Below are positions 1,761 through 10,687 of a DNA stretch of 11,328 nt, in pieces (positions within the stretch are counted from its first letter, which is position 1; each line of letters starts with the position of its first letter). The stretch is from Chloroflexota bacterium. GTDB taxonomy: Bacteria > Chloroflexota > Limnocylindria > Limnocylindrales > CSP1-4. Under the pieces are notes generated by a model. It ran no database searches. It was given only the letters and a program-made list of their open reading frames with translations, and was not told the origin of the DNA. The stretch covers positions 1 through 11,328 of the forward strand of contig JAKAAV010000028.1 of NCBI GenBank assembly GCA_021802185.1, written 5' to 3'. The translations under genes and the position numbers were made by a program.

Positions 1761-2525
1761 ATGCCAGATCGGATCGACCTGAACGCGGACGTCGGGGAGA
1801 GCCTGGGCCCGTGGCCGATGGGCGCAGACGAGGCCCTCATGCCGTTCCTCAGCTCGGCGAACATCGCGTGCGGCTTCCACGCCGGCGACCCGCTGACGAT
1901 CCGGCGGACCGTGCGGCTCGCGCTCGACGCCGGCGTCGCGGTCGGCGCGCATCCGGGCTTTCCCGATCTGCTCGAGTTCGGCCGCCGTGCGATGTCGATC
2001 ACGTCCCGCGAGCTCGAGGCGGTCGTCCTGTACCAGGTCGCCGCGCTCGCCGGGATCGCCCGTGCCGAAGGCGGTCGCCTCGTCCACGTGAAGGCGCACG
2101 GCGCGCTGTACCACCACGTCTCGTCGGATGCCGCGGCCGGGTTGGCGTTCGCGACGGCCGTGGCGCGGCTCGACAGCGGACTGGCGATCGTGGGGCCGCC
2201 GGGATCCGCCGTGCTCGAGGCCGCCACCGAGCTCGGCCTCCGGTCGCTCGTCGAGGGCTTCGCCGACCGTTCGTACGAGCCGTCCGGTCGGCTGCGGGCG
2301 CGCGACCTGCCGGGGGCGCTCCACGAGGAACCGGAGATGGCCGCGGCCCAGGCGGTGTCGATCGCGCGCGAGGGGCGGGTCACGGCGGTCGACGGGTCGG
2401 TGGTACCCGTCGCGGCGGACACGATCTGCATCCACGGCGACACGCCGGGAGCGCCTGCGATCGCCTCGGCCGTTCGCCGCGCCCTGGAAGCCGTCGGGAT
2501 CGAGGTGCGCTCGGCCTGTGCGTGA
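1761..2525 (+). CDS. pxpA: 5-oxoprolinase subunit A (LamB/YcsF family)
   Basis: This is a subunit of the three-part PxpABC enzyme, which uses ATP to open 5-oxoproline (pyroglutamate) to glutamate in the cytoplasm. At 254 residues it has the normal family length. Conserved blocks are IDLNADVGES (5-14), NIACGFHAGDP (34-44), VGAHPGFPD (61-69), HVKAHGALYH (109-118), EGFADRSYEPSGRL in the middle and ICIHGDTPGA near the C-terminus. These cover the metal-dependent TIM-barrel-like fold of the LamB/YcsF group. AGGAGG at 1747-1752 lies eight nt before ATG 1761, the strongest Shine-Dalgarno in this half of the window. Its stop overlaps the GTG start of pxpB by 8 nt, indicating coupled translation. Confidence 0.95.
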   Translation: MPDRIDLNADVGESLGPWPMGADEALMPFLSSANIACGFHAGDPLTIRRTVRLALDAGVAVGAHPGFPDLLEFGRRAMSITSRELEAVVLYQVAALAGIARAEGGRLVHVKAHGALYHHVSSDAAAGLAFATAVARLDSGLAIVGPPGSAVLEAATELGLRSLVEGFADRSYEPSGRLRARDLPGALHEEPEMAAAQAVSIAREGRVTAVDGSVVPVAADTICIHGDTPGAPAIASAVRRALEAVGIEVRSACA

Positions 2526-3249
2526 GCGGAGCGCCGCCCTGCCGGTTCCACGCATCGACGTCGTGGGCGACGCCGCCCTCATCGCGACGCTCGCGAACGA
2601 CCTCGACCTCGATGTGAGCCGCTGGGCACTGCGCGCTGCGGCGTGGCTCGAGGCACGCCGCCCGTCGATACCCGGCCTCGGCGCGCCCGTCCCCGGCCAC
2701 GCCAGCGTCCTCGTCCCGTTCGACCCGGACCGGTTGCCCGAGACCGCCGTGCGATCGCTCATCGCCGACGCACTCGAGCAGACACGGCGACCCTTCGGCG
2801 GGGATCGCGCGGACTCCGGCGAGGGCCCCGCGATGCACGGCGTCACCGGCGTGCTGCACGAGATCGCCGTGTCGTACGGGGGCGCGGACGGGCCGGACCT
2901 CGCGGACGTTGCCGCACGCACGGGTCTCCCGTTGGCCGAGGTCGTCGCACTGCACGCTTCGGTCGAGTACCGCGTGCTCGTGCTCGGGTTCGTGCCCGGG
3001 TTCCCGTATCTCGGCATCGTGCCGGCGGCGCTCGAGCTTCCCCGACGGCCGACGCCGCGGACGCGCGTGCCCTCGGGCAGCGTCGCGATCGCCGGCCGGC
3101 AGACGGGGATCTACCCGTTCGAGACGCCCGGCGGTTGGCATCTGATCGGCCGAACGGACGTCGCGCTCTGGGACCCGCTGCGCGAGCCGCCGGCCCTGCT
3201 CGCGCCGGGGGACCGCGTCCGGTTCATTCCGACGCGCGTCGCAGGCTGA
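2518..3249 (+). CDS. pxpB: 5-oxoprolinase subunit B (KipI/allophanate hydrolase subunit 1 family)
   Basis: This 243-residue protein is the partner of PxpC; the two resemble the halves of the urea amidolyase/allophanate hydrolase carboxyl-transfer region. Diagnostic blocks are HEIAVSYGG.DGPDL, HASVEYRVLVLGFVPGFPYLG, PRTRVPSGSVAIAGRQTGIYP and TPGGWHLIGRT, all in the usual order. The start was set at GTG 2518, which overlaps the end of pxpA by 8 nt and has GAGGTG at 2502-2507. No ATG lies in frame before the first conserved block. The first dozen residues are variable, so a start slightly downstream cannot be excluded. A 3-nt gap separates it from pxpC. Confidence 0.93.
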   Translation: MRERSAALPVPRIDVVGDAALIATLANDLDLDVSRWALRAAAWLEARRPSIPGLGAPVPGHASVLVPFDPDRLPETAVRSLIADALEQTRRPFGGDRADSGEGPAMHGVTGVLHEIAVSYGGADGPDLADVAARTGLPLAEVVALHASVEYRVLVLGFVPGFPYLGIVPAALELPRRPTPRTRVPSGSVAIAGRQTGIYPFETPGGWHLIGRTDVALWDPLREPPALLAPGDRVRFIPTRVAG

Positions 3250-3252
3250 CAC

Positions 3253-4362
3253 GTGCTGGAGGTCGTCTCGCCCGGCGTCCTGCTCACGCTCCAGGACCGC
3301 GGCCGGCCGGGCCTCGCCCACCTCGGAGTGCCGCCGTCGGGACCTGCGGACCCGTGGGCATACGAGGTCGCGACCGTCCTCGCGGGCTGGCGGCCGGATG
3401 CCGGGCTGCCCGGCCCCGTCGCGCTCGAGGTCACGCTCGGCGGGACGCACTTCCGGATCCTCGAAGCGTGCGCGCTCGCACTGGCCGGGGCGGACCTCGG
3501 CGCGGAACTCGATGATGGAACACGGCTCGCCTCGGGGAGCGTCCAGCGGGTTGCCGCCGGGTCGGAGGTGAGGTTCACCGGCGGGACGGGCGCGGACGGG
3601 GGGCCAGCCGCCGGGATGCGCGCCTACGTCGCGCTCGCCGGCGGGATCGAGGCGCGCCTCGTCCTCGGGTCGGCATCGACCTGCGTCTCGGCACGGCTCG
3701 GGGGGATCGACGGCCGGCCGCTCCGCGCGGGCGACGTCATCGTGCCGGTCCGCCACGCCGCGCTCGACGCCGTCGGCCGGGCATGGCCACTCGCGGCTGC
3801 CCCGCATCCCGCGCGCTCGCGTGCTCCCATCGCGTTCGTTCCCGGCCCGGACCTCGGGCGCCTTCCCCCGGGCGCGTCCGAGGCGCTGCAGGCCACGACG
3901 TGGCGGGTCGGCGACGCATGCGACCGAATGGGCAGCCGCCTCGAGCCGGCGGGCGGCTCGAGGCGGCTCGAGCCGACGAGTGCCCCCATCCCGCTCGACC
4001 CCGCGGATCGCTCGGGGCGGGCCCAACCCGCGAATGCGTCCGGCCCGCTCGAGGCCGGTCACGAGATCCTGTCGCACCCGGTCGTCCCCGGCGCGATCCA
4101 GGTCCCCGCCGACGGCCGCCCCGTCATCCTGTTCGTCGACGGTCCGACGATCGGCGGCTACCCGGTCATCGGCGTCGTGCCGCGGTGGCAGTGGCCTCGG
4201 CTCGGTCAGCTCCGGCCGGGCGACGAGGTCACGTTCGCCCCGCAGGACGCCGAGTCGGCGCGCGGCGCGTGGGACGCGCAGCGGGCGGAGTTCGGCGCGG
4301 GAGTGTCGCGGATGTCGGCCGACGCGGTGTGGGACCGGCTCGCCGACGGCGCGGGCTCGTGA
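3253..4362 (+). CDS. pxpC: 5-oxoprolinase subunit C (biotin-dependent carboxyltransferase-like)
   Basis: This is the 369-residue third subunit of PxpABC. Family blocks are VVSPGVLLTLQDRGRPG (4-20), GVPPSGPADPWA (25-36), LALAGADLGAELDDG (75-89), AYVALAGGI (124-132), LGSASTCVSARLGG (138-151), ACDRMGSRLE (222-231), VPGAIQVPADGRPVILFVDG (278-297) and IGGYP..GVVPRWQWPRLGQLRPGD toward the end. GTG 3253 follows the pxpB stop by 3 nt. No strong Shine-Dalgarno is visible, so translation probably depends on coupling. The oddity is residues about 232-266. Where relatives pass quickly from the DRMG.RL block to the I.S..V.PGAIQ block, this protein carries about 30 extra residues rich in Pro, Ser, Arg and Ala. 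They are encoded in part by short DNA repeats. The catalytic blocks on both sides look intact. Confidence 0.94.
   Translation: MLEVVSPGVLLTLQDRGRPGLAHLGVPPSGPADPWAYEVATVLAGWRPDAGLPGPVALEVTLGGTHFRILEACALALAGADLGAELDDGTRLASGSVQRVAAGSEVRFTGGTGADGGPAAGMRAYVALAGGIEARLVLGSASTCVSARLGGIDGRPLRAGDVIVPVRHAALDAVGRAWPLAAAPHPARSRAPIAFVPGPDLGRLPPGASEALQATTWRVGDACDRMGSRLEPAGGSRRLEPTSAPIPLDPADRSGRAQPANASGPLEAGHEILSHPVVPGAIQVPADGRPVILFVDGPTIGGYPVIGVVPRWQWPRLGQLRPGDEVTFAPQDAESARGAWDAQRAEFGAGVSRMSADAVWDRLADGAGS
3935..3971. repeat. Inverted and tandem repeats inside pxpC
   Basis: GCCGCCTCGAGCC (3935-3947) is a perfect inverted repeat of GGCTCGAGGCGGC (3955-3967). Overlapping this, GGCGGCTCGA is present twice in tandem at 3952-3961 and 3962-3971. 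The result at protein level is the doubled RLEP pattern at the start of the extra loop. The repeat coincides with the non-conserved insertion, suggesting that the loop grew by repeat expansion. Confidence 0.85.
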
Positions 4363-4513: not shown

Positions 4514-4921
4514 TCAGCCCCCTTCCTTGCCGGGAGCCTCCGCGAGCGCCTCCCGCATCATCGCGAGCGACCGGTCCGGTCCCTTGAACCCGACCAGGTA
4601 CTCGAGCCGGATCGGCGCAAAGCACTCGTAGAACACGACGTCCTCGTCGCCGAGCTGGCGGAACGCGTGGATCCAGTCGGACGGGATCACGAGCAGCGAC
4701 CCCGGCCCGACCTCAGATTCCTCGTCCCCGACCTTCGCCCAGAGCCGGCCGCGCTCGACGAGCATGATCTGCTCGGCCGGGTGATGGTGCTCCGGGATCA
4801 CGACGCCGTCGCGGTAGACGATGCGGGTCATCATGACCTTCTCGCCGGACACCGCCTGCCGGCTCACGCCCCTGACGTACTCGACCGTCGGGAACTCGTC
4901 CCAGGTCGTGATCTGGCCCAC
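4514..4921 (-). CDS. Single-domain cupin protein
   Basis: This 135-residue protein is the last gene of the molybdenum hydroxylase operon. Cupin motif 1 is G39-x5-H45-H46-H47-P-A-E50-Q51 with G58 closing the turn. Motif 2 follows as PGSLLVIPSDWIH (73-85), with H85 as the fourth likely metal ligand. Such small cupins bind a divalent metal; they may act as dioxygenases, isomerases or sugar/acid-binding proteins, so no reaction can be assigned. The start is GTG 4921, one nt after the stop of the preceding gene. The frame begins well before the cupin core, giving the expected length for a one-domain cupin. Its position suggests either a step after the hydroxylase or an accessory role. Confidence 0.88.
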   Translation of the reverse strand: MGQITTWDEFPTVEYVRGVSRQAVSGEKVMMTRIVYRDGVVIPEHHHPAEQIMLVERGRLWAKVGDEESEVGPGSLLVIPSDWIHAFRQLGDEDVVFYECFAPIRLEYLVGFKGPDRSLAMMREALAEAPGKEGG

Positions 4922-4922
4922 G

Positions 4923-5954
4923 TCAGCGGCCTCCCGCGGCGGCGGCGCTCTCGGTCGCCCACTTCGCCTCGAGCCCCCGAAGGATCTTCTCGGGCGTCAC
5001 GGGCAGGTCGTCCACCCGCACCCCGCACGCGTGGTAGATCGCGTTGACGATCGCCGGGATCGGTGAGTTCGCCGTCATCTCGCCCACGCCCTTCACGCCG
5101 TACGGTCCCGTCGACGACGGCACCTCGAGCACGACGCAGTCGATCTCCGGCAGCTCCGCCGGCCCCGGCATGACGTACTCGCTGAAGTCCTTCGGCTTGT
5201 GGTCCGGGTTCGGGTAGTAGGGCTCCGTGGTCTCGTACAGCGCGTGCGACATGCCCATCCACGCGCCACCGACGATCTGGCCCCGCACGAGCGCCGGGTT
5301 GACCTGGCGGCCGACCTCGTACGCGCTCCTGATGCCGAGGACCGCGACCTGCCCGGTTTCGGTGTCGACCTCGACCTCGGCGATCGTGCAGGCGTGCGCC
5401 TCCGTCGAGTCCGGGTCCATCGCGCCGGTCTCCGGGTCCACCGGGCTCTTCGGCTTCATGTAGGCGCCACGGCCCGAGATGGTCCGCCCGTACTCGAACT
5501 GCGCCTTCGACGCGACCTCCGCCACGCGCACACACCGACCAGGGTCGCCGGCCACCAGGACGTTCCCGAAGCCGTCGAGCACGAGACCGCCGACCGGCGC
5601 GTTCAGTTCCAGTGCGGCGACCTCGAGGAGCGCGGTCCGGGCCTCTTCCGCCGCGGCCTTCACCGCGTTGCCCACGCGGTGCGTCGCCCGACTCGCGAAG
5701 GTGCCCATGCAGTGGGGGCCAGTGTCGGTGTCCGCTGTGTCGATCACGACCTCGTCGGCCGCAACGCCGAGCGTCTCGGCGGCGATCTGGCCGATGACCG
5801 TGCGAAGCCCCTGGCCGAGGTCCGTGCTCGAGAGTGCCACGACGAACGAGCCGCTCGTCGTGGCGTGGATGAGGGCCTGCGACGGATCGCCGCCCAGGTT
5901 CATGCCGGTCGGGTAGTTGACCGCCGCGATCCCCGTCCCGCGAAGCTTCGCCAT
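4923..5954 (-). CDS. Molybdenum hydroxylase catalytic subunit, C-terminal half (MoCoBD_2)
   Basis: This 343-residue protein is the second molybdopterin-binding domain of a xanthine dehydrogenase-family catalytic subunit, encoded as a separate gene. It begins just where the second domain normally begins, with RGTGIAAVNYPTGMN (5-19). It then has LSSTDLGQG (41-49), GPHCMGTFASRATHRVGNAV (79-98) and the catalytic-site block PYGVKGVGE (284-292), whose E292 is the general-base glutamate of the family. ATG 5954 was chosen because AAGGAG at 5970-5965 lies ten nt upstream and domain homology starts immediately. The frame is open far upstream, but that sequence is Arg/Gly-rich and unrelated to the family. 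Only 2 nt separate it from the stop of the first half. NdhM of nicotinate dehydrogenase is a known analogue of about this size. Confidence 0.9.
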   Translation of the reverse strand: MAKLRGTGIAAVNYPTGMNLGGDPSQALIHATTSGSFVVALSSTDLGQGLRTVIGQIAAETLGVAADEVVIDTADTDTGPHCMGTFASRATHRVGNAVKAAAEEARTALLEVAALELNAPVGGLVLDGFGNVLVAGDPGRCVRVAEVASKAQFEYGRTISGRGAYMKPKSPVDPETGAMDPDSTEAHACTIAEVEVDTETGQVAVLGIRSAYEVGRQVNPALVRGQIVGGAWMGMSHALYETTEPYYPNPDHKPKDFSEYVMPGPAELPEIDCVVLEVPSSTGPYGVKGVGEMTANSPIPAIVNAIYHACGVRVDDLPVTPEKILRGLEAKWATESAAAAGGR

Positions 5955-5956
5955 GG

Positions 5957-7417
5957 CTACAGGACTCCTTCCGCGGTCGAGGCCGGGGCCGCCGGGGCGC
6001 CGGCGGATGCAGGGGCGCCGGCGGCGCGGGAGCCCGCCGCAGCGGCCTCCCCTCCAGGCGAGCCCTCCGGCCCGGGCGACCTGGGCGCCGACGTCATCGC
6101 CCGCTGCTCGTCGGTCAGTTCGTGGCCGACGAGCGCCGCGGCCGCCTGCATCGTCTCGATGAGCGTCGCGTCCTCGGCGAGCTTCCGGTGCGGCTTCATG
6201 TCGCCGTTCCGGTACGCGTTGACGAACCGGATCGTCCATGGGTCCACGCCGACCCGCTCCGCGATCCGGTCCATCTGCACCTCGATCGCGTACGACGCCA
6301 TCGTCACGCCGAAGCCGCGCATCGCACTGGACGGCGTGCGGTTGGTGAACACGCAGTACGCGTCGATCGAGACGTTCGGGATCGCGTACGGCCCGGCCGC
6401 GTTCGCCGCGTGCTTCGTCAGCGCGTACGGCGTCTGCCGACTGTACGCGCCGGAGTCCGCGTAGCTCGTGACCTTGCGCGCGACGATCCGGCCGTCCCGC
6501 ATGACGCCATCCCTGATGCGGATGCGCCACGCGCTCCGGGTCGACGAGACCTGCATCTCCTCCGACCGGCTGAACACATACCGCACCGGGCGGCCCGTCT
6601 TCATCGCGGCCAGCGTCGCGATCGGCTCGACGATCACGTCGACCTTCCCGCCGAACCCGCCGCCGACCGTCCCGCCGACGAAGTGGAGCCGCTTCCCCGC
6701 GACCTGCAGGATGATCGCGGTGTTGTCGAGGCTGAAGTACAGCGCCTGGGTGTTCGTGTAGACGGTGAACCGGCCGTCCGCCTCGGGGACCGCGACGCAC
6801 CCGGTCGTCTCCGTCGGCGCGTGCTCGATCGGGCTGGAGTTGTAGACCGCCTCGACGATGTGGTCGGCCTGCGCGAACCCGGCCTCGACGTCCCCGAACC
6901 GCACGCGGCGGCACGGATGGCCCTCGAACATGAACGCGTTGCTGCCCCAGTGCGTCACGATCGGCGCGTCCGGCTGCAGCGCCTCCTCGACGTCGAAGAC
7001 CGCCGGCAGCTCCTCGAGGTCGAGGCGCACCTGCGCGACGGCCTCGAGCGCGGCCGCCTCCGTCTCGGCGACGATCGCGACGATCGGCTCCCCCTTGTAG
7101 CGCACGCGATCCTGCGCCAGGACGAACTCCTCCTCCGGCTCCACCCCGATGAGGCCCAGGATCGTGTAGACGTTGTGCGGGACGTCGCGCCAGGTCAGGG
7201 CGCGCACGAAGCCGGGAACGCGCTCCGCGCGGGACAGGTCGACCGCGCGGATCATCGCGTGATGGACGGGGCTGCGGACCATCCTGAGGTGCAGCATCCC
7301 GGGGAACGTGTAGTCGCCGGCGTAACGGGTCCGGCCCGTGACGTGCGCGGCGGCGTCGCTGCGCTGGACCGACCGGCCGACGACGTGCAGCGGCTCGGGC
7401 ATCTTCAGCTCCGGCAT
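5957..7417 (-). CDS. Molybdenum hydroxylase catalytic subunit, N-terminal half (Ald_Xan_dh_C plus MoCoBD_1)
   Basis: This 486-residue protein corresponds to the first half of a xanthine dehydrogenase-type molybdopterin subunit. An a/b hammerhead domain (about 15-145) has TGRTRYAGD (28-35) and RVRYKGEPIVAIVAE (104-118). The first cofactor-binding domain follows, with GGTVGGGFGGK (248-258) and the SSAMRGFGV block (363-371). It ends after VGHELTDEQRA with about 45 residues of Ala/Pro/Gly/Ser (443-486) and a TAG at 5957. The AYRCSFR loop of true aerobic CO dehydrogenase is absent, so this is not CoxL. ATG 7417 has GGGGGAG eight nt upstream and lies 2 nt after the previous stop; a second in-frame ATG is at 7402. 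It should pair with the next gene to make one active site. Substrate unknown. Confidence 0.9.
   Translation of the reverse strand: MPELKMPEPLHVVGRSVQRSDAAAHVTGRTRYAGDYTFPGMLHLRMVRSPVHHAMIRAVDLSRAERVPGFVRALTWRDVPHNVYTILGLIGVEPEEEFVLAQDRVRYKGEPIVAIVAETEAAALEAVAQVRLDLEELPAVFDVEEALQPDAPIVTHWGSNAFMFEGHPCRRVRFGDVEAGFAQADHIVEAVYNSSPIEHAPTETTGCVAVPEADGRFTVYTNTQALYFSLDNTAIILQVAGKRLHFVGGTVGGGFGGKVDVIVEPIATLAAMKTGRPVRYVFSRSEEMQVSSTRSAWRIRIRDGVMRDGRIVARKVTSYADSGAYSRQTPYALTKHAANAAGPYAIPNVSIDAYCVFTNRTPSSAMRGFGVTMASYAIEVQMDRIAERVGVDPWTIRFVNAYRNGDMKPHRKLAEDATLIETMQAAAALVGHELTDEQRAMTSAPRSPGPEGSPGGEAAAAGSRAAGAPASAGAPAAPASTAEGVL
5965..5970 (-). promoter_or_regulatory. Strong ribosome binding site for the separate C-terminal half
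   Basis: On the minus strand AAGGAG (5970-5965) precedes ATG 5954 by ten nt and overlaps the last codons of the N-terminal half. It is the main evidence that the second half is a real independently initiated gene rather than the product of a sequencing frameshift. Confidence 0.75.
5994..6024. repeat. 13-bp direct repeat in the linker-like tail
   Basis: GGGGCGCCGGCGG occurs at 5994-6006 and 6012-6024, 18 bp apart. In the protein it produces the repeated AGAPA pattern of the low-complexity C-terminal tail of the N-terminal half. It lies directly before the split point of the catalytic subunit. Confidence 0.8.
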
Positions 7418-7423
7418 CTTCAG
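7394..7423 (-). repeat. 15-bp near-perfect tandem repeat duplicating a start codon
   Basis: On the minus strand CTGAAGATGCCGGAG (7423-7409) is followed by CTGAAGATGCCCGAG (7408-7394), differing at one base. Each copy carries an ATG, giving possible starts at 7417 and 7402. The first copy also carries the TGA that ends the iron-sulfur subunit gene. The second ATG has GGAG six nt upstream, so either could be used. Confidence 0.8.
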
Positions 7424-7941
7424 CGCTCCCCCGACGGATCCGGCCAATCGCCGGCATCGCGCCCGGCATCGGTCGTGGCGCCCGCGGCGGCCGCCTCGAT
7501 CGCCTCGATGATCGGCGCGTACCCCGTGCAGCGGCAGACGTTCCCGCCGAGCGCGTCGATGATCTCGTCGCGACTCGGCGATGGATGGTGGTCGAGCAGC
7601 GTCTTCGTCAGCACGACCATGCCCGGCGTGCAGTACCCGCACTGGAACGCGTTCTTCTCGATGAACGCCTGCTGGATCGGGGCGAGGCCCGCGACGGGGG
7701 CGATGCCCTCGATCGTGGTCACCCGCCGGCCCTCGACGTCCTCGACGGGCAGCAGGCACGACATCATCGGCTCGCCGTCGACGAGGACAGTGCAGCTCCC
7801 GCACCCACCCTGCCGGCAGCCCTCCTTCGTGCCGGTGTACCCGAGCTGGCTGCGGAGCACGGACTGCAGCGTGGCCATCGGACTGACCAGGACCTCGACC
7901 TCGCGGCCACAGAGCTCGAAGCTGACGATGCGGGATCCCAC
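7420..7941 (-). CDS. Molybdenum hydroxylase iron-sulfur subunit, 2x[2Fe-2S]
   Basis: This 173-residue small subunit passes electrons from the molybdenum site to FAD. The plant-ferredoxin-type cluster is held by C42, C47, C50 and C62 (GCRQGGCGSC...SC). The second cluster, in the helical [2Fe-2S]-binding domain, is held by C101, C104, C136 and C138 (QCGYCTPG...NVCRCTGY). All eight cysteines are present, and the length is typical with a slightly longer, acidic C-terminal tail. The start is GTG 7941 with GGAGGG eight nt upstream, one nt after the stop of the FAD subunit gene. The frame extends further upstream, but only as Arg/Ser-rich non-family sequence. It is the CoxS/XdhC-type subunit of the enzyme formed with the neighbouring FAD and two molybdopterin genes. 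Confidence 0.95.
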   Translation of the reverse strand: MGSRIVSFELCGREVEVLVSPMATLQSVLRSQLGYTGTKEGCRQGGCGSCTVLVDGEPMMSCLLPVEDVEGRRVTTIEGIAPVAGLAPIQQAFIEKNAFQCGYCTPGMVVLTKTLLDHHPSPSRDEIIDALGGNVCRCTGYAPIIEAIEAAAAGATTDAGRDAGDWPDPSGER

Positions 7942-7942
7942 G

Positions 7943-8794
7943 CTACCGACCCTCCAGTGCGACGTGCTGCACGAGTTCCTCGAGCGCCCGCCGCACGAAC
8001 AGCCTGACCATCGCGCGCCGGTACCACGCGCTCGCGATGCCGTCATCGAACGGCTCGCACTCCTCCGCCGCCGCCTCTGCCGCTTCGTCGATTGCACCGG
8101 GCTCGAGCGATGACCCGACCAGGACCGCCTCGGCCTTCCGCGCGCGCAACGCGTGCGGCCCGACCGCGCCGAGCGCGACGCGCGCGTCGGTCACGACCTC
8201 TCCGTCGCGGGCGACGCGGACGGCGACCGTGACCACGGAGGGCGTATTCGCCTCCTTCCGGCCGAACTTCACGTACGTGGTCTCGCCGGCAACCGCGGGG
8301 ACGCCGATGCCCGTGAGCAGCTCCTGCGGCTCGAGGGCCGTGGTCATGAACCCGGTCTGGAACTCCGACAGTGCAAGCGTCCTCCGGCCACGGCTGCCCT
8401 CGAGCGTCACCTCCGCGTCGAGCGCGAGCAGCGCAACCGCGACGTCGCCGCCGGGCGGCGGAGTGAAGAGGTTGCCCCCGACCGTGCCCATGTTCCGGAT
8501 CGACCAGCTCGCGGTCCGCCGCGCGGCCTCCGCGAGCATCGGCACGTGCCGCTGGCGGAGAAGGCTGGTGAGGGTGGTCGTGGCGCCGATCCGGAGACCC
8601 CCGTCGGAGGGCTCGATCTCATCGAGGCCGACGAACCGAAGGCCCATGACCTGGCGCGGCAGGCTGATCCCATCGTTGATCAAGGGCATCGCGACGGTGC
8701 CGCCGGCGATGACGAGCAGGTCCGGGCCGTGTCGCGAGAGCAGGTCGACGGCCTGCGCCAGCGAGCGAGGGAGGAAGTATTCGACGACGGTCAC
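7943..8794 (-). CDS. Molybdenum hydroxylase FAD-binding subunit (CoxM/CutM type)
   Basis: This 283-residue flavoprotein subunit receives electrons from the iron-sulfur subunit and hands them to the final acceptor. The N-terminal FAD_binding_5 domain (about 1-170) has IAGGT (29-33) and the flavin-contact block TVGGN (104-108), with the preceding SWSIRNMG typical of the family. The C-terminal CO_deh_flav_C domain (about 175-278) includes YVKFGRKEAN and RVALGAVGP. Length is normal. The start is GTG 8794, which overlaps the stop of coxG by 4 nt (GTGA) and has GGGAGG seven nt upstream. The gene order FAD, FeS, Mo is that of many CoxMSL-type operons. No xanthine-specific feature could be picked out. 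Confidence 0.95.
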   Translation of the reverse strand: MTVVEYFLPRSLAQAVDLLSRHGPDLLVIAGGTVAMPLINDGISLPRQVMGLRFVGLDEIEPSDGGLRIGATTTLTSLLRQRHVPMLAEAARRTASWSIRNMGTVGGNLFTPPPGGDVAVALLALDAEVTLEGSRGRRTLALSEFQTGFMTTALEPQELLTGIGVPAVAGETTYVKFGRKEANTPSVVTVAVRVARDGEVVTDARVALGAVGPHALRARKAEAVLVGSSLEPGAIDEAAEAAAEECEPFDDGIASAWYRRAMVRLFVRRALEELVQHVALEGR

Positions 8795-9342
8795 TCGGGC
8801 GCCTCCCTGGGTGATGGTCGCCCGGATGCCGGGGCGACCGTGGAGCTGGCTTCGATGAGATGCGAGTTCAGCGCCTGGAGGCCCTGGGCGATCAGCGTAT
8901 TCGCGAGGCTCTCCGCGAAGCGCGAGTCGAGCCGGGCGAGCGGCCCCTGGATGACGGCCTCGCCGCGGTACTCAAGGAGCGTCCGGGACGCGATCGATCG
9001 GCCGTCCGAGCCGGCGCCGGGTCGGCCGTCATGGGCCGGCTCGTCGTCGACCTCCGTCAGCCCGAAGTCGGCCCGGCCCGCGATCGTCCCCATCGGACCC
9101 TCGACACGCCCTTCCATCCCGGCGGCGTGCGGCGGATCGGCGTCGACGAGCCGCACGAACGTCCGGAACGTCGCCCCGACGCCGGGCAGACGCAGGACGA
9201 GCGACCCCTGGTACTCGTGCGGCGCGACCTGCTCGATCGCCTCGCAGCCCGGGATCACGGCGAGCAGCGTGGCAGGATCGCAGGCCGCATCGAACACCTC
9301 GCGTGGGCCGGCGTCAAGGACGTGGTGCCCAGCGACCTTCAT
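8791..9342 (-). CDS. coxG: CoxG-like SRPBCC-fold protein
   Basis: This 183-residue member of the carbon monoxide dehydrogenase subunit G family belongs to the SRPBCC/START-like hydrophobic-cavity fold. The start MKVAGHHVLDAGPREVFDAACDP, the LLAVIPGCEAIEQV block (about 26-39) and the closing helix near GPLARLDSRFAESLANTLIAQGLQALNSHL are typical. In the CO dehydrogenase system CoxG is linked to membrane attachment of the enzyme; in other molybdenum hydroxylase operons its role is less clear. It is followed by a short Ser/Pro tail. ATG 9342 overlaps the regulator's stop by 4 nt (ATGA); no strong Shine-Dalgarno is seen beyond a GGAG very close to the ATG, so coupling is likely. The symbol is a family name and does not imply CO oxidation here. 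Confidence 0.88.
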   Translation of the reverse strand: MKVAGHHVLDAGPREVFDAACDPATLLAVIPGCEAIEQVAPHEYQGSLVLRLPGVGATFRTFVRLVDADPPHAAGMEGRVEGPMGTIAGRADFGLTEVDDEPAHDGRPGAGSDGRSIASRTLLEYRGEAVIQGPLARLDSRFAESLANTLIAQGLQALNSHLIEASSTVAPASGRPSPREAPE

Positions 9343-10199
9343 GGCTCCGGCCCGCCTGATGGCTCCGGCCCGCCTGACGCATTCGAACCGGACGGCCCGG
9401 CCTCGGCTCCGGTCGGATCCGACGCGTCCTCGAGCGCGCGCTCGACGTGGTCGAGGTGCTCCTGCATCGCTCGCGCCGCCGCCTCCTGGTCGCGGGCCCT
9501 GAGCGCCGCGAGAATGCCGGCGTGGTCCATGAGCGTGGCCTCGCGGACCTCGCGCACCGCGCCGGTCCGGTCGCGGCTGATCCTGCCGAGCGTGTTGATG
9601 ATCGCCATGAACTGCCCCAGCAGGAAGTTTCCGGCGGCCACGCAGATCGTGTCGTGGAACGCGATGTCGAGTTCGCTGAAGGTGCCGGGAAGGTCGACGG
9701 CGCGGCCCAGGCGCGCAAGGATCGACTCGAGCGAGGCGAGTTGGTCCTCGGCGATGCGCCCCGCGGCCAAGCGGACATTCCCGACCTCGACGACGCGGCG
9801 CGCCTCGAGCAGCCGGGCGAGCGCGACAGTGTCGGTGGAGAACGCCAACTCGAGGTGCGAGACGAGCTGCGTCGGCTCGAGCGCCGTCACGTACGTACCG
9901 CGGCCCTGCCGGATGTCGACGACCTTCATGAGCGCGAGCGCTCGCAGGGCCTCGCGAAGGATCGGCCGGCTGACCTCCATCATGGAGGCAAGCGTCCGCT
10001 CGGGGGGGAGCTTGTCGCCGGGCCGCAGCTCACGCGCGCGGATCAGCGCGAGCAGGCGACCCGCGATCTCCTCCGGGAGCGTGCTCCGCCCGACCAGCCG
10101 GAACCGCGCCGCCTCGACGGGGACGCTCGGCCCCGGGCCCGACCTCGCTTTGGCGTCCACTGGCACGCGCGTTCGTCCTCCCTCGCCCCCGCCGGTCAC
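9339..10199 (-). CDS. FadR-subfamily GntR transcriptional regulator (wHTH + FCD)
   Basis: This 286-residue DNA-binding regulator is the first gene of the molybdenum hydroxylase operon. A winged helix (about 33-104) has LRPGDKLPPERTLASMMEVSRPILREAL and the wing RQGRGTYV. The all-helical FCD ligand domain (about 120-255) has D178, H182, H226 and H248 at the positions that bind a metal in this family, so it probably senses a carboxylate. The tail is Gly/Pro/Ser-rich and includes a doubled SGGPEP. GTG 10199 was chosen because GGAGG lies five nt upstream and the palindrome at 10228-10238 then falls 29 nt before it. A TTG at 10226 would add nine residues but would leave the palindrome on its ribosome binding site. 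Overlap with coxG is 4 nt. Autoregulation is inferred. Confidence 0.92.
   Translation of the reverse strand: MTGGGEGGRTRVPVDAKARSGPGPSVPVEAARFRLVGRSTLPEEIAGRLLALIRARELRPGDKLPPERTLASMMEVSRPILREALRALALMKVVDIRQGRGTYVTALEPTQLVSHLELAFSTDTVALARLLEARRVVEVGNVRLAAGRIAEDQLASLESILARLGRAVDLPGTFSELDIAFHDTICVAAGNFLLGQFMAIINTLGRISRDRTGAVREVREATLMDHAGILAALRARDQEAAARAMQEHLDHVERALEDASDPTGAEAGPSGSNASGGPEPSGGPEP
9341..9376. repeat. Perfect 18-bp tandem duplication at the regulator/coxG junction
   Basis: The unit ATGGCTCCGGCCCGCCTG is present at 9341-9358 and 9359-9376 with no spacer. It adds a second SGGPEP to the regulator's C-terminus and lies directly before the coxG start, yet keeps the frame and the 4-nt stop/start overlap. 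Confidence 0.9.
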
Positions 10200-10219
10200 G
10201 CTAGCCTCCGCGGAAGGGG

Positions 10220-10240
10220 TGGTCAAGTGGTCAGACCATT
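10220..10240. promoter_or_regulatory. FadR-family operator palindrome with extra half-site
   Basis: TGGTCAGACCA at 10228-10238 is a perfect 11-bp palindrome around a central A, and it matches the TGGTCnGACCA core known for FadR and resembles TGGT..ACCA sites of PdhR-like relatives. A further half-site TGGTCA lies at 10220-10225. It sits between the divergent regulator operon and the ABM gene, 29 nt upstream of the regulator start at 10199. The likely binder is the adjacent regulator. The match is seen in sequence; binding is inferred. Confidence 0.7.
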
Positions 10241-10399
10241 GATCGAGCGCTCGGGCATCTGGGGGCAGGATGTGACCGGCGGCACCGCGTGCCGGCGGCG
10301 GAGGGTGCAGGTCGGCAGAGCGTCCCGGCGACCGAGTGTCCCGGCGGCCAGGCGAGCCGGCAGCCGAGCGTGAGCATCGACAGGCGCATGGAGGCAGAC

Positions 10400-10687
10400 A
10401 TGATCGAGCGCCACATCACGTTCCACGTCATCGACGGCCGTGCGGCCGACTTCGAGGCGTTCTTCGCGACGCGGTACCGGCCGGCGATGTCGAAATCGCC
10501 GGGGTACGTGGACGCGTGGCTCCTTCGGGAGCTCGAGCAGCCGGCGCGCAACCAGATGGTGCTGCGGTTCGACAACGTCGATGCGGCCACGGGTTGGCGG
10601 ACGTCGGCGGAGCACGAGGCGCTCCAGCCCGATTTGACCGCGCTGCACTCCGGGATGGACATCGTCGCGTACGAAGTGGTGGTCTGA
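10400..10687 (+). CDS. Small dimeric alpha/beta-barrel protein (ABM-like)
   Basis: This 95-residue protein has the length and pattern of antibiotic biosynthesis monooxygenase (ABM)/EthD-like ferredoxin-fold proteins. It has a first strand ERHITFHVIDG, a helix ADFEAFFATRYRPAM, a strand pair PGYVDAWLLRELEQPARNQMVLRFD, a helix with TGWRTSAEHEAL, and a last strand IVAYEVVV. Members may be cofactor-free oxygenases, heme-binding or merely structural, so no reaction is assigned. ATG 10400 was chosen because GGAGG (10390-10394) lies five nt upstream; an in-frame ATG at 10388 is inside that ribosome binding site. It diverges from the hydroxylase operon and shares the operator region, so it may be controlled by the same regulator. 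Confidence 0.78.
   Translation: MIERHITFHVIDGRAADFEAFFATRYRPAMSKSPGYVDAWLLRELEQPARNQMVLRFDNVDAATGWRTSAEHEALQPDLTALHSGMDIVAYEVVV

Follow-up and report, generated by a model that had tools for sequence, protein, structure and literature searches.

The window analysed here is an 11,328-nucleotide (nt) stretch of the draft genome of a Chloroflexota bacterium (assembly GCA_021802185.1, contig JAKAAV010000028.1). Its minus strand carries an operon with the gene order GntR/FCD regulator, CoxG-like protein, flavin adenine dinucleotide (FAD) subunit, [2Fe-2S] subunit, N-half, C-half and cupin. The N-half and C-half together match the molybdenum subunit of a xanthine-oxidase-family hydroxylase. The pair is genuine and conserved, and is most likely an independent two-gene version of this known enzyme subunit.

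The split gene pair and its distribution

The N-half gene (Table 1) ends with a TAG stop codon at 5959–5957. The C-half gene restarts 2 nt downstream in a different frame with an ATG at 5954 (junction TAG-CC-ATG), and its own stop codon ends at 4923. An AAGGAG sequence lies 10 nt upstream of this ATG, still within the last codons of the N-half (5970–5965); a purine-rich stretch was seen by eye at the same position in many relatives' junctions. Pfam matches above gathering cut-offs were Ald_Xan_dh_C (residues 27–138) and MoCoBD_1 (170–400) on the N-half and MoCoBD_2 alone (3–269) on the C-half, and the domain set of the xanthine oxidase family (hammerhead, MoCoBD_1 and MoCoBD_2) is complete over the two adjacent proteins. 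The motifs GGGFGGK (252–258) and RGFG (367–370) are in the N-half and KGVGE (288–292) is in the C-half. A first-pass annotation had reported a subunit split at the domain boundary into proteins of 486 and 343 amino acids (aa), the second restarting 2 nt on in another frame behind AAGGAG and ATG, with all key motifs kept; the open reading frame (ORF) coordinates and Pfam domains bear this out in every part. Database names for family members are general, such as "CO/xanthine dehydrogenase Mo-binding subunit" and "molybdopterin cofactor-binding domain-containing protein".

The frame of the C-half holds an 848-aa ORF in the window and is open for 500 codons upstream. This ORF is a by-product of high GC content, since in loci L013 and L016–L021 the same frame closes 11–64 codons upstream of the C-half start. 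The window N-half ends in a low-complexity tail of ~45 aa beyond its conserved part. Of 14 close loci, three have such a long tail (L008, which is the window, L009 and L010), whereas the N-halves of the remaining 11 stop at a common point, give or take ~15 aa; long tails also recur beyond close relatives, as in L106.

Related genomes contained C-half matches at 15 places (78–100% identity). Loci were fetched for 14 of these, including the window, and all 14 are split. We take the fifteenth to be scan locus L051, also split, from its genome and identity. One genome per species was scanned (84,980 genomes), which gave 384 encoding stretches. Of these the top 80 (60–93% identity) were retained; 79 are split and one, L066 (Caldilineales), is fused. 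By record title these 80 comprise 39 Chloroflexota, 24 Pseudomonadota, 12 Actinomycetota, two Thermomicrobiota, two haloarchaea and one unplaced bacterium. Twelve contigs were fetched by both routes, and removal of second copies reduced 94 rows to 82 distinct loci, which were used for site counts. Across several bacterial phyla and haloarchaea, 81 of the 82 are split at the same point and one is fused. Loci with odd junctions, L078 (205 nt between genes) and L106 (altered N-half tail), were counted as split, and L063 is partly masked. The homologous split pairs that the first-pass annotation proposed to look for are present in related genomes, and the relatives examined, nearly all split and not fused, do not refute the split.

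A plasmid collection gave 1086 matching records. The best five were opened (59–66% identical, the next record being 37% identical), and all five are split; they come from a haloarchaeon, Yoonia, Sinorhizobium, Nonomuraea and Shinella. The Sinorhizobium sp. BG8 copy (L120) has an additional frame break within its N-half. As a control, other molybdo-hydroxylases of the window's and related genomes were fetched, and both halves lie in a single ORF at 21 of 22 loci (L006 and L007 being one gene). The split is therefore a trait of this family and not of these genomes generally. The exception, L034, is a distant fused-type paralogue (36% identity) with its halves in different frames, which may reflect a frameshift or another split. 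Of 400 genomes sampled from the phylum, eight, with the window's genome among them, contain a C-half homologue (E ≤ 1e-100). Homologues in other phyla are ~60–70% identical, and the patchy distribution therefore suggests gene transfer.

Stop codons of the N-half vary over loci (TAG, TAA and TGA), as do C-half starts (ATG and GTG). Junction spacing ranges from -14 to +28 nt with a single outlier at +205, and all three frame relations are represented; same-frame junctions with an intervening stop have gaps of 0, 3 or 12 nt. Nonsynonymous (dN) and synonymous (dS) divergence was measured against two relatives. Against L038, dN and dS were 0.032 and 0.368 for the first 440 aligned codons of the N-half, 0.042 and 0.390 for the C-half, and 0.178 and 0.275 for the N-half tail. 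Against L039 the corresponding values were 0.050 and 0.431, 0.085 and 0.604, and 0.694 and 1.1. Both halves are under purifying selection and thus maintained. The tail is under relaxed constraint and behaves like a spacer.

Error, pseudogene formation and frameshifting are all very unlikely causes of the split, and the variety of stops, starts, spacings and frames speaks against both sequencing error and frameshifting. An error of assembly or sequencing, or pseudogene decay, confined to a single genome might be suspected because the window's genome is a draft (76% complete, 450 contigs) and frameshift-type joins do appear in other database proteins of the split family; the same split in nearly every distinct locus, over many assemblies including some from named isolates, together with purifying selection on both halves, leaves that explanation practically no chance. 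Programmed frameshifting would yield a single polypeptide across the junction, and the C-half frame is indeed open far upstream in some loci. Its closure in seven relatives, the occurrence of all frame relations including the same frame with a stop between, and the C-half's own start codon and AAGGAG-like site make it highly improbable. No common slippery motif was noticed at the junctions by eye, without a dedicated motif search.

Active site, gene neighbourhood and presumed reaction

The closest solved structures are those of the Eubacterium barkeri nicotinate dehydrogenase NdhFSLM (PDB 3HRD): 3hrd_A (NdhL; 4.3e-72) for the N-half and 3hrd_B (NdhM; 1.4e-49) for the C-half. Lys335, Arg367 and Phe369 of the N-half and Tyr14, Arg89, His92, Lys288 and Glu292 of the C-half are invariant in 82 of 82 loci; Glu292 is the KxxGE glutamate of the xanthine oxidase family. 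Lys335 aligns with an Arg in both NdhL and aldehyde oxidoreductase (1SIJ).

Bovine xanthine oxidase served as the reference for residue numbers and roles. The position aligned with Glu802, a purine-binding residue, is Val in 81 of 82 loci and Asn in one. The position aligned with Gln767 is Ile in 79, Val in two and a gap in one. The HMMER alignment has a one-residue gap that puts His336 opposite Arg880, and the window lacks Arg by either reading. Xanthine-type substrate binding is therefore unlikely, and purine-style binding as in xanthine dehydrogenase is probably not the case here. The role of bovine Arg880 is discussed in PMC5746545.

Neither half reached an NCBIfam equivalog cut-off, although whole-protein models handicap half proteins. 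The N-half scored 289 against pucD (cut-off 784), and the two halves scored 159.7 (N-half) and 105.3 bits (C-half) against CoxL TIGR02416 (cut-off 991.15), all scores lowered by the split. A xanthine/purine dehydrogenase or carbon monoxide (CO) dehydrogenase with an unusual gene layout would account for the domain matches to XdhA, PucD and CoxL models and for the CoxD-like and CoxE-like matches near family members (counted below). That assignment is improbable given scores so far under the cut-offs, even for half proteins, the Val at the Glu802-aligned position and the invariant Lys opposite the NdhL Arg. The genes beside many family members recall the CO dehydrogenase operon coxMSLDEFG in their CoxD (AAA+), CoxE (VWA) and CoxG-like products; in aerobic CO dehydrogenase, however, CoxL is one chain. 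The alpha subunit of 4-hydroxybenzoyl-CoA reductase (1RM6) belongs to the same fold family and is the C-half's second-best PDB match, but it is a single chain with RGHG where the window has RGFG, and its equivalog cut-off was missed. As described in PMC5239795, the nicotine-induced ndrB1B2B3B4 genes of Sphingomonas melonis TY are four genes for a molybdo-hydroxylase, two of which, ndrB3 and ndrB4, each show likeness to a single large subunit. This set may represent a split of the same kind.

Neighbouring genes were counted by tblastn in 85 loci. A match anywhere in a locus counts, many contigs end early, and AAA matches can be unspecific. FAD subunit genes were found in 81 of 85 loci and iron–sulphur (FeS) subunit genes in 83. 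Matches to a CoxD-like ATPase (43/85), a CoxE-like VWA protein (41/85), EthD (46/85), GntR (48/85) and SRPBCC (33/85) were also frequent. In many Pseudomonadota and Actinomycetota loci the CoxD-like AAA ATPase and CoxE-like VWA genes lie downstream of the C-half, directly or past an EthD gene (for example L070:9354-11386 and L097:9008-10920), although the enzyme they accompany does not score as a CO dehydrogenase. The L070 ATPase has the MadB model as its best NCBIfam match, below cut-off. According to PMC4240915, a role in the maturation of CO dehydrogenase has been proposed for CoxD and CoxE. A search of the window's own draft genome, 76% complete, returned one XdhC-like match and no CoxE-family match.

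A fuconolactonase-like amidohydrolase was found in 35 of 85 loci and a cyclase/arylformamidase-like protein in 22. The amidohydrolase scored 110 and 102 bits against the L-fucono-1,5-lactonase model (cut-off 400) and the cyclase 45 bits against the arylformamidase model (cut-off 223); isatin hydrolases are among the solved relatives of the cyclase. The substrates of known kin of both proteins are cyclic esters, cyclic amides and compounds with related bonds, which they cleave by hydrolysis, and for this reason we infer a ring oxidation followed by hydrolytic ring opening. Our best guess for the substrate is a cyclic compound whose oxidised form, a lactam or lactone, would be opened by the hydrolase.

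Two intact, conserved and adjacent ORFs with complementary domains and motifs follow the FAD and FeS genes. We propose that coupled translation produces both polypeptides together and that they would come together about a single molybdopterin in the manner of NdhL and NdhM. The hammerhead domain, the RGFG loop and Lys335 would come from the N-half; the C-half would provide Glu292, the presumed catalytic base, and a substrate-pocket residue, Tyr14. Oxygen from water would be placed on a substrate carbon, and electrons would pass from molybdenum through two [2Fe-2S] clusters to FAD; this oxygen source and electron path are established for the family. A structural model of the C-half, built with 22 sequences, had a mean predicted local distance difference test (pLDDT) score of 81.5 and a predicted template modelling (pTM) score of 0.71. 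Its weakest stretches, 76–85 and 243–259, may be the parts that touch the cofactor or the partner.

Fused relatives and the origin of the split

Fused proteins were sought among the best 120 of 3958 database matches. A protein was counted as fused when the N-half tail motif was present, the linker was in frame and no internal C-half start occurred. Seven database proteins (P0245, P0246, P0247, P0249, P0250, P0251 and P0264) are fused in frame, in addition to locus L066. Their linkers are dissimilar to one another, except in the close kin L066 and P0251. These in-frame fusions show that the junction is labile. Well-supported branches of both trees described below require at least three changes between split and fused states within the family, and a clade of split members without fused ones was rejected in the C-half tree test. 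The trees alone give no direction. It is simpler to assume that an ancestor already split gave rise to the fused forms, because splitting prevails across the loci seen and the linkers are not alike.

Many other long database proteins look fused, but by eye an out-of-frame stretch precedes the C-half start, and they were set aside as probable frameshift joins; the fusion count also excludes the doubtful cases P0248, P0296, P0304, P0319 and a handful more. In P0261, P0270, P0285 and P0298 the C-half continues into a CoxD-like ATPase, and some of these are possibly true fusions. Among 14 such joins inspected, a few seem in frame and most do not, and no inference was drawn from them.

PMC5746545 describes the molybdenum domain of the E. 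barkeri nicotinate dehydrogenase as divided between L and M, with Tyr13 of M modelled as binding the nicotinate ring nitrogen. Like the window's enzyme, NdhFSLM is cut at the same domain boundary and has separate FAD, FeS, Mo-N and Mo-C subunits. The window C-half is, however, 35–38% identical to six NdhM-type proteins, the N-half carries Val and Lys at positions that are Leu and Arg in NdhL, and the family sits apart from NdhLM in trees. CoxD/CoxE-like matches near many family members may be a further difference from ndh. Tyr13 of NdhM aligns with C-half Tyr14. An equivalent tyrosine occurs in 119 of the 120 NdhM-type proteins listed, and 13 of 18 fused proteins in the outgroup carry it as well, so that this residue is shared without being diagnostic of the NdhLM type.

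A C-half tree of 72 rows included the window, 26 of 79 split scan loci and 19 of 120 listed NdhM matches. A two-half tree of 51 rows included the window and 24 split scan loci; its sole NdhLM row combined NdhL of 3HRD (residues 5–412) with P0123, a protein sharing 99% identity with NdhM. The 18 fused outgroup proteins were hand-picked from the same best 120 of 3958. In the C-half tree the 19 NdhM rows form one clade (support 98/89); together with two fused proteins (100/99) it lies on the fused-outgroup side, away from the split family. In the two-half tree the sister of NdhLM is fused P0356 (99/96), and P0354 falls in the same group (100/100). A joint clade of the split family with NdhM or NdhLM was rejected by approximately unbiased (AU) tests (p-AU 0.0092 for the C-half and 0.0017 for both halves), and p-AU was 8e-6 in a quick tree without the long-branched P0342.

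NdhLM groups with fused proteins and the joint split clade is rejected; the same cut was therefore most likely made twice, the split family and NdhLM arising by independent fissions (rough probability 0.85). In this family the molybdenum-subunit gene would have been cut between the two cofactor-binding domains early in a multi-phylum history. A single fission shared with NdhL/NdhM, with the intervening fused proteins re-fused later, would fit the common domain boundary, the position of 3HRD as closest solved relative of both halves and the split/fused changes that do happen within the family. It is unlikely, as the trees place NdhM (C-half) and NdhLM (two halves) with fused P0354 and P0356, the joint clade is rejected and several re-fusions outside the family would be required. 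Between the first-pass alternatives of an NdhLM-related N-heterocycle hydroxylase and an independent split, the trees and AU tests favour the second. The likeness to nicotinate dehydrogenase is genuine too, as seen in the best PDB match for both halves and the aligned Tyr14; an N-heterocycle substrate was not identified, and the Tyr is common in the fused outgroup.

Several points weigh against our interpretation. The outgroup branches are long and were flagged by the tree program itself, and the two-half trees held a single NdhLM pair. The best 80 of 384 scan loci are biased toward near relatives. The seven fused proteins and L066 show that the split is dispensable for function in this family. 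The two polypeptides are deduced here from the genes. The substrate class is drawn from relatives' neighbourhoods, and the window operon adjoins a cupin gene, not a ring-opening hydrolase.

A description of the split family was not found in searches limited to an open-access library. We give even odds to the broader proposal of an undescribed four-subunit molybdenum hydroxylase family, present in haloarchaea as well as in four or more bacterial phyla and often encoded beside CoxD/CoxE-type maturation genes and hydrolases of the ring-opening kind, that would catalyse a novel catabolic step and owe its NdhLM-style split to convergence. If so, NdhLM, the sole clear split found in the literature searched, becomes one case of a recurrent route, and a molybdenum subunit can be cut between its cofactor-binding domains, stay split over several phyla and occasionally occur fused again. 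The family is also a widespread and strongly conserved enzyme with culturable hosts that include Mesorhizobium and Actinophytocola.

Other genes in the window

The remaining annotated genes are listed in Table 1 with the split pair. Some of the regulator matches counted there are on the opposite strand, at ~30% identity. ABM proteins and the EthD proteins of other loci are both small ferredoxin-like folds.

Table 1. Features annotated in the window, with match counts over the 85 tblastn loci.
Feature	Position	Strand	Remarks
GntR/FCD (FadR-type) regulator	9339..10226	minus	matched in 34/85 loci
CoxG/SRPBCC-like accessory protein	8791..9342	minus	PF06240; matched in 23/85 loci
FAD subunit (FAD_binding_5 + CO_deh_flav_C)	7943..8794	minus	
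[2Fe-2S] subunit (Fer2 + Fer2_2)	7420..7941	minus	start codon picked by comparing relatives
N-half of molybdenum subunit (NdhL-like)	5957..7417	minus	486 aa; hammerhead + MoCoBD_1, GGGFGGK, RGFG, variable low-complexity tail
AAGGAG, candidate ribosome-binding site for C-half gene	5965..5970	minus	within the end of the N-half gene
C-half of molybdenum subunit (NdhM-like)	4923..5954	minus	343 aa; MoCoBD_2, KGVGE, Tyr14
Cupin protein, next downstream of C-half	4514..4921	minus	PF07883; 17/85 loci
ABM-domain protein, divergent from operon	10289..10687	plus	PF03992; ABM match in 15/85 loci

A pxpABC-like 5-oxoprolinase cluster (LamB/YcsF, CT_C_D and CT_A_B) lies at 1761–4362 on the plus strand, convergent to the operon. 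The same convergent arrangement was seen in one of 85 other loci, L038.

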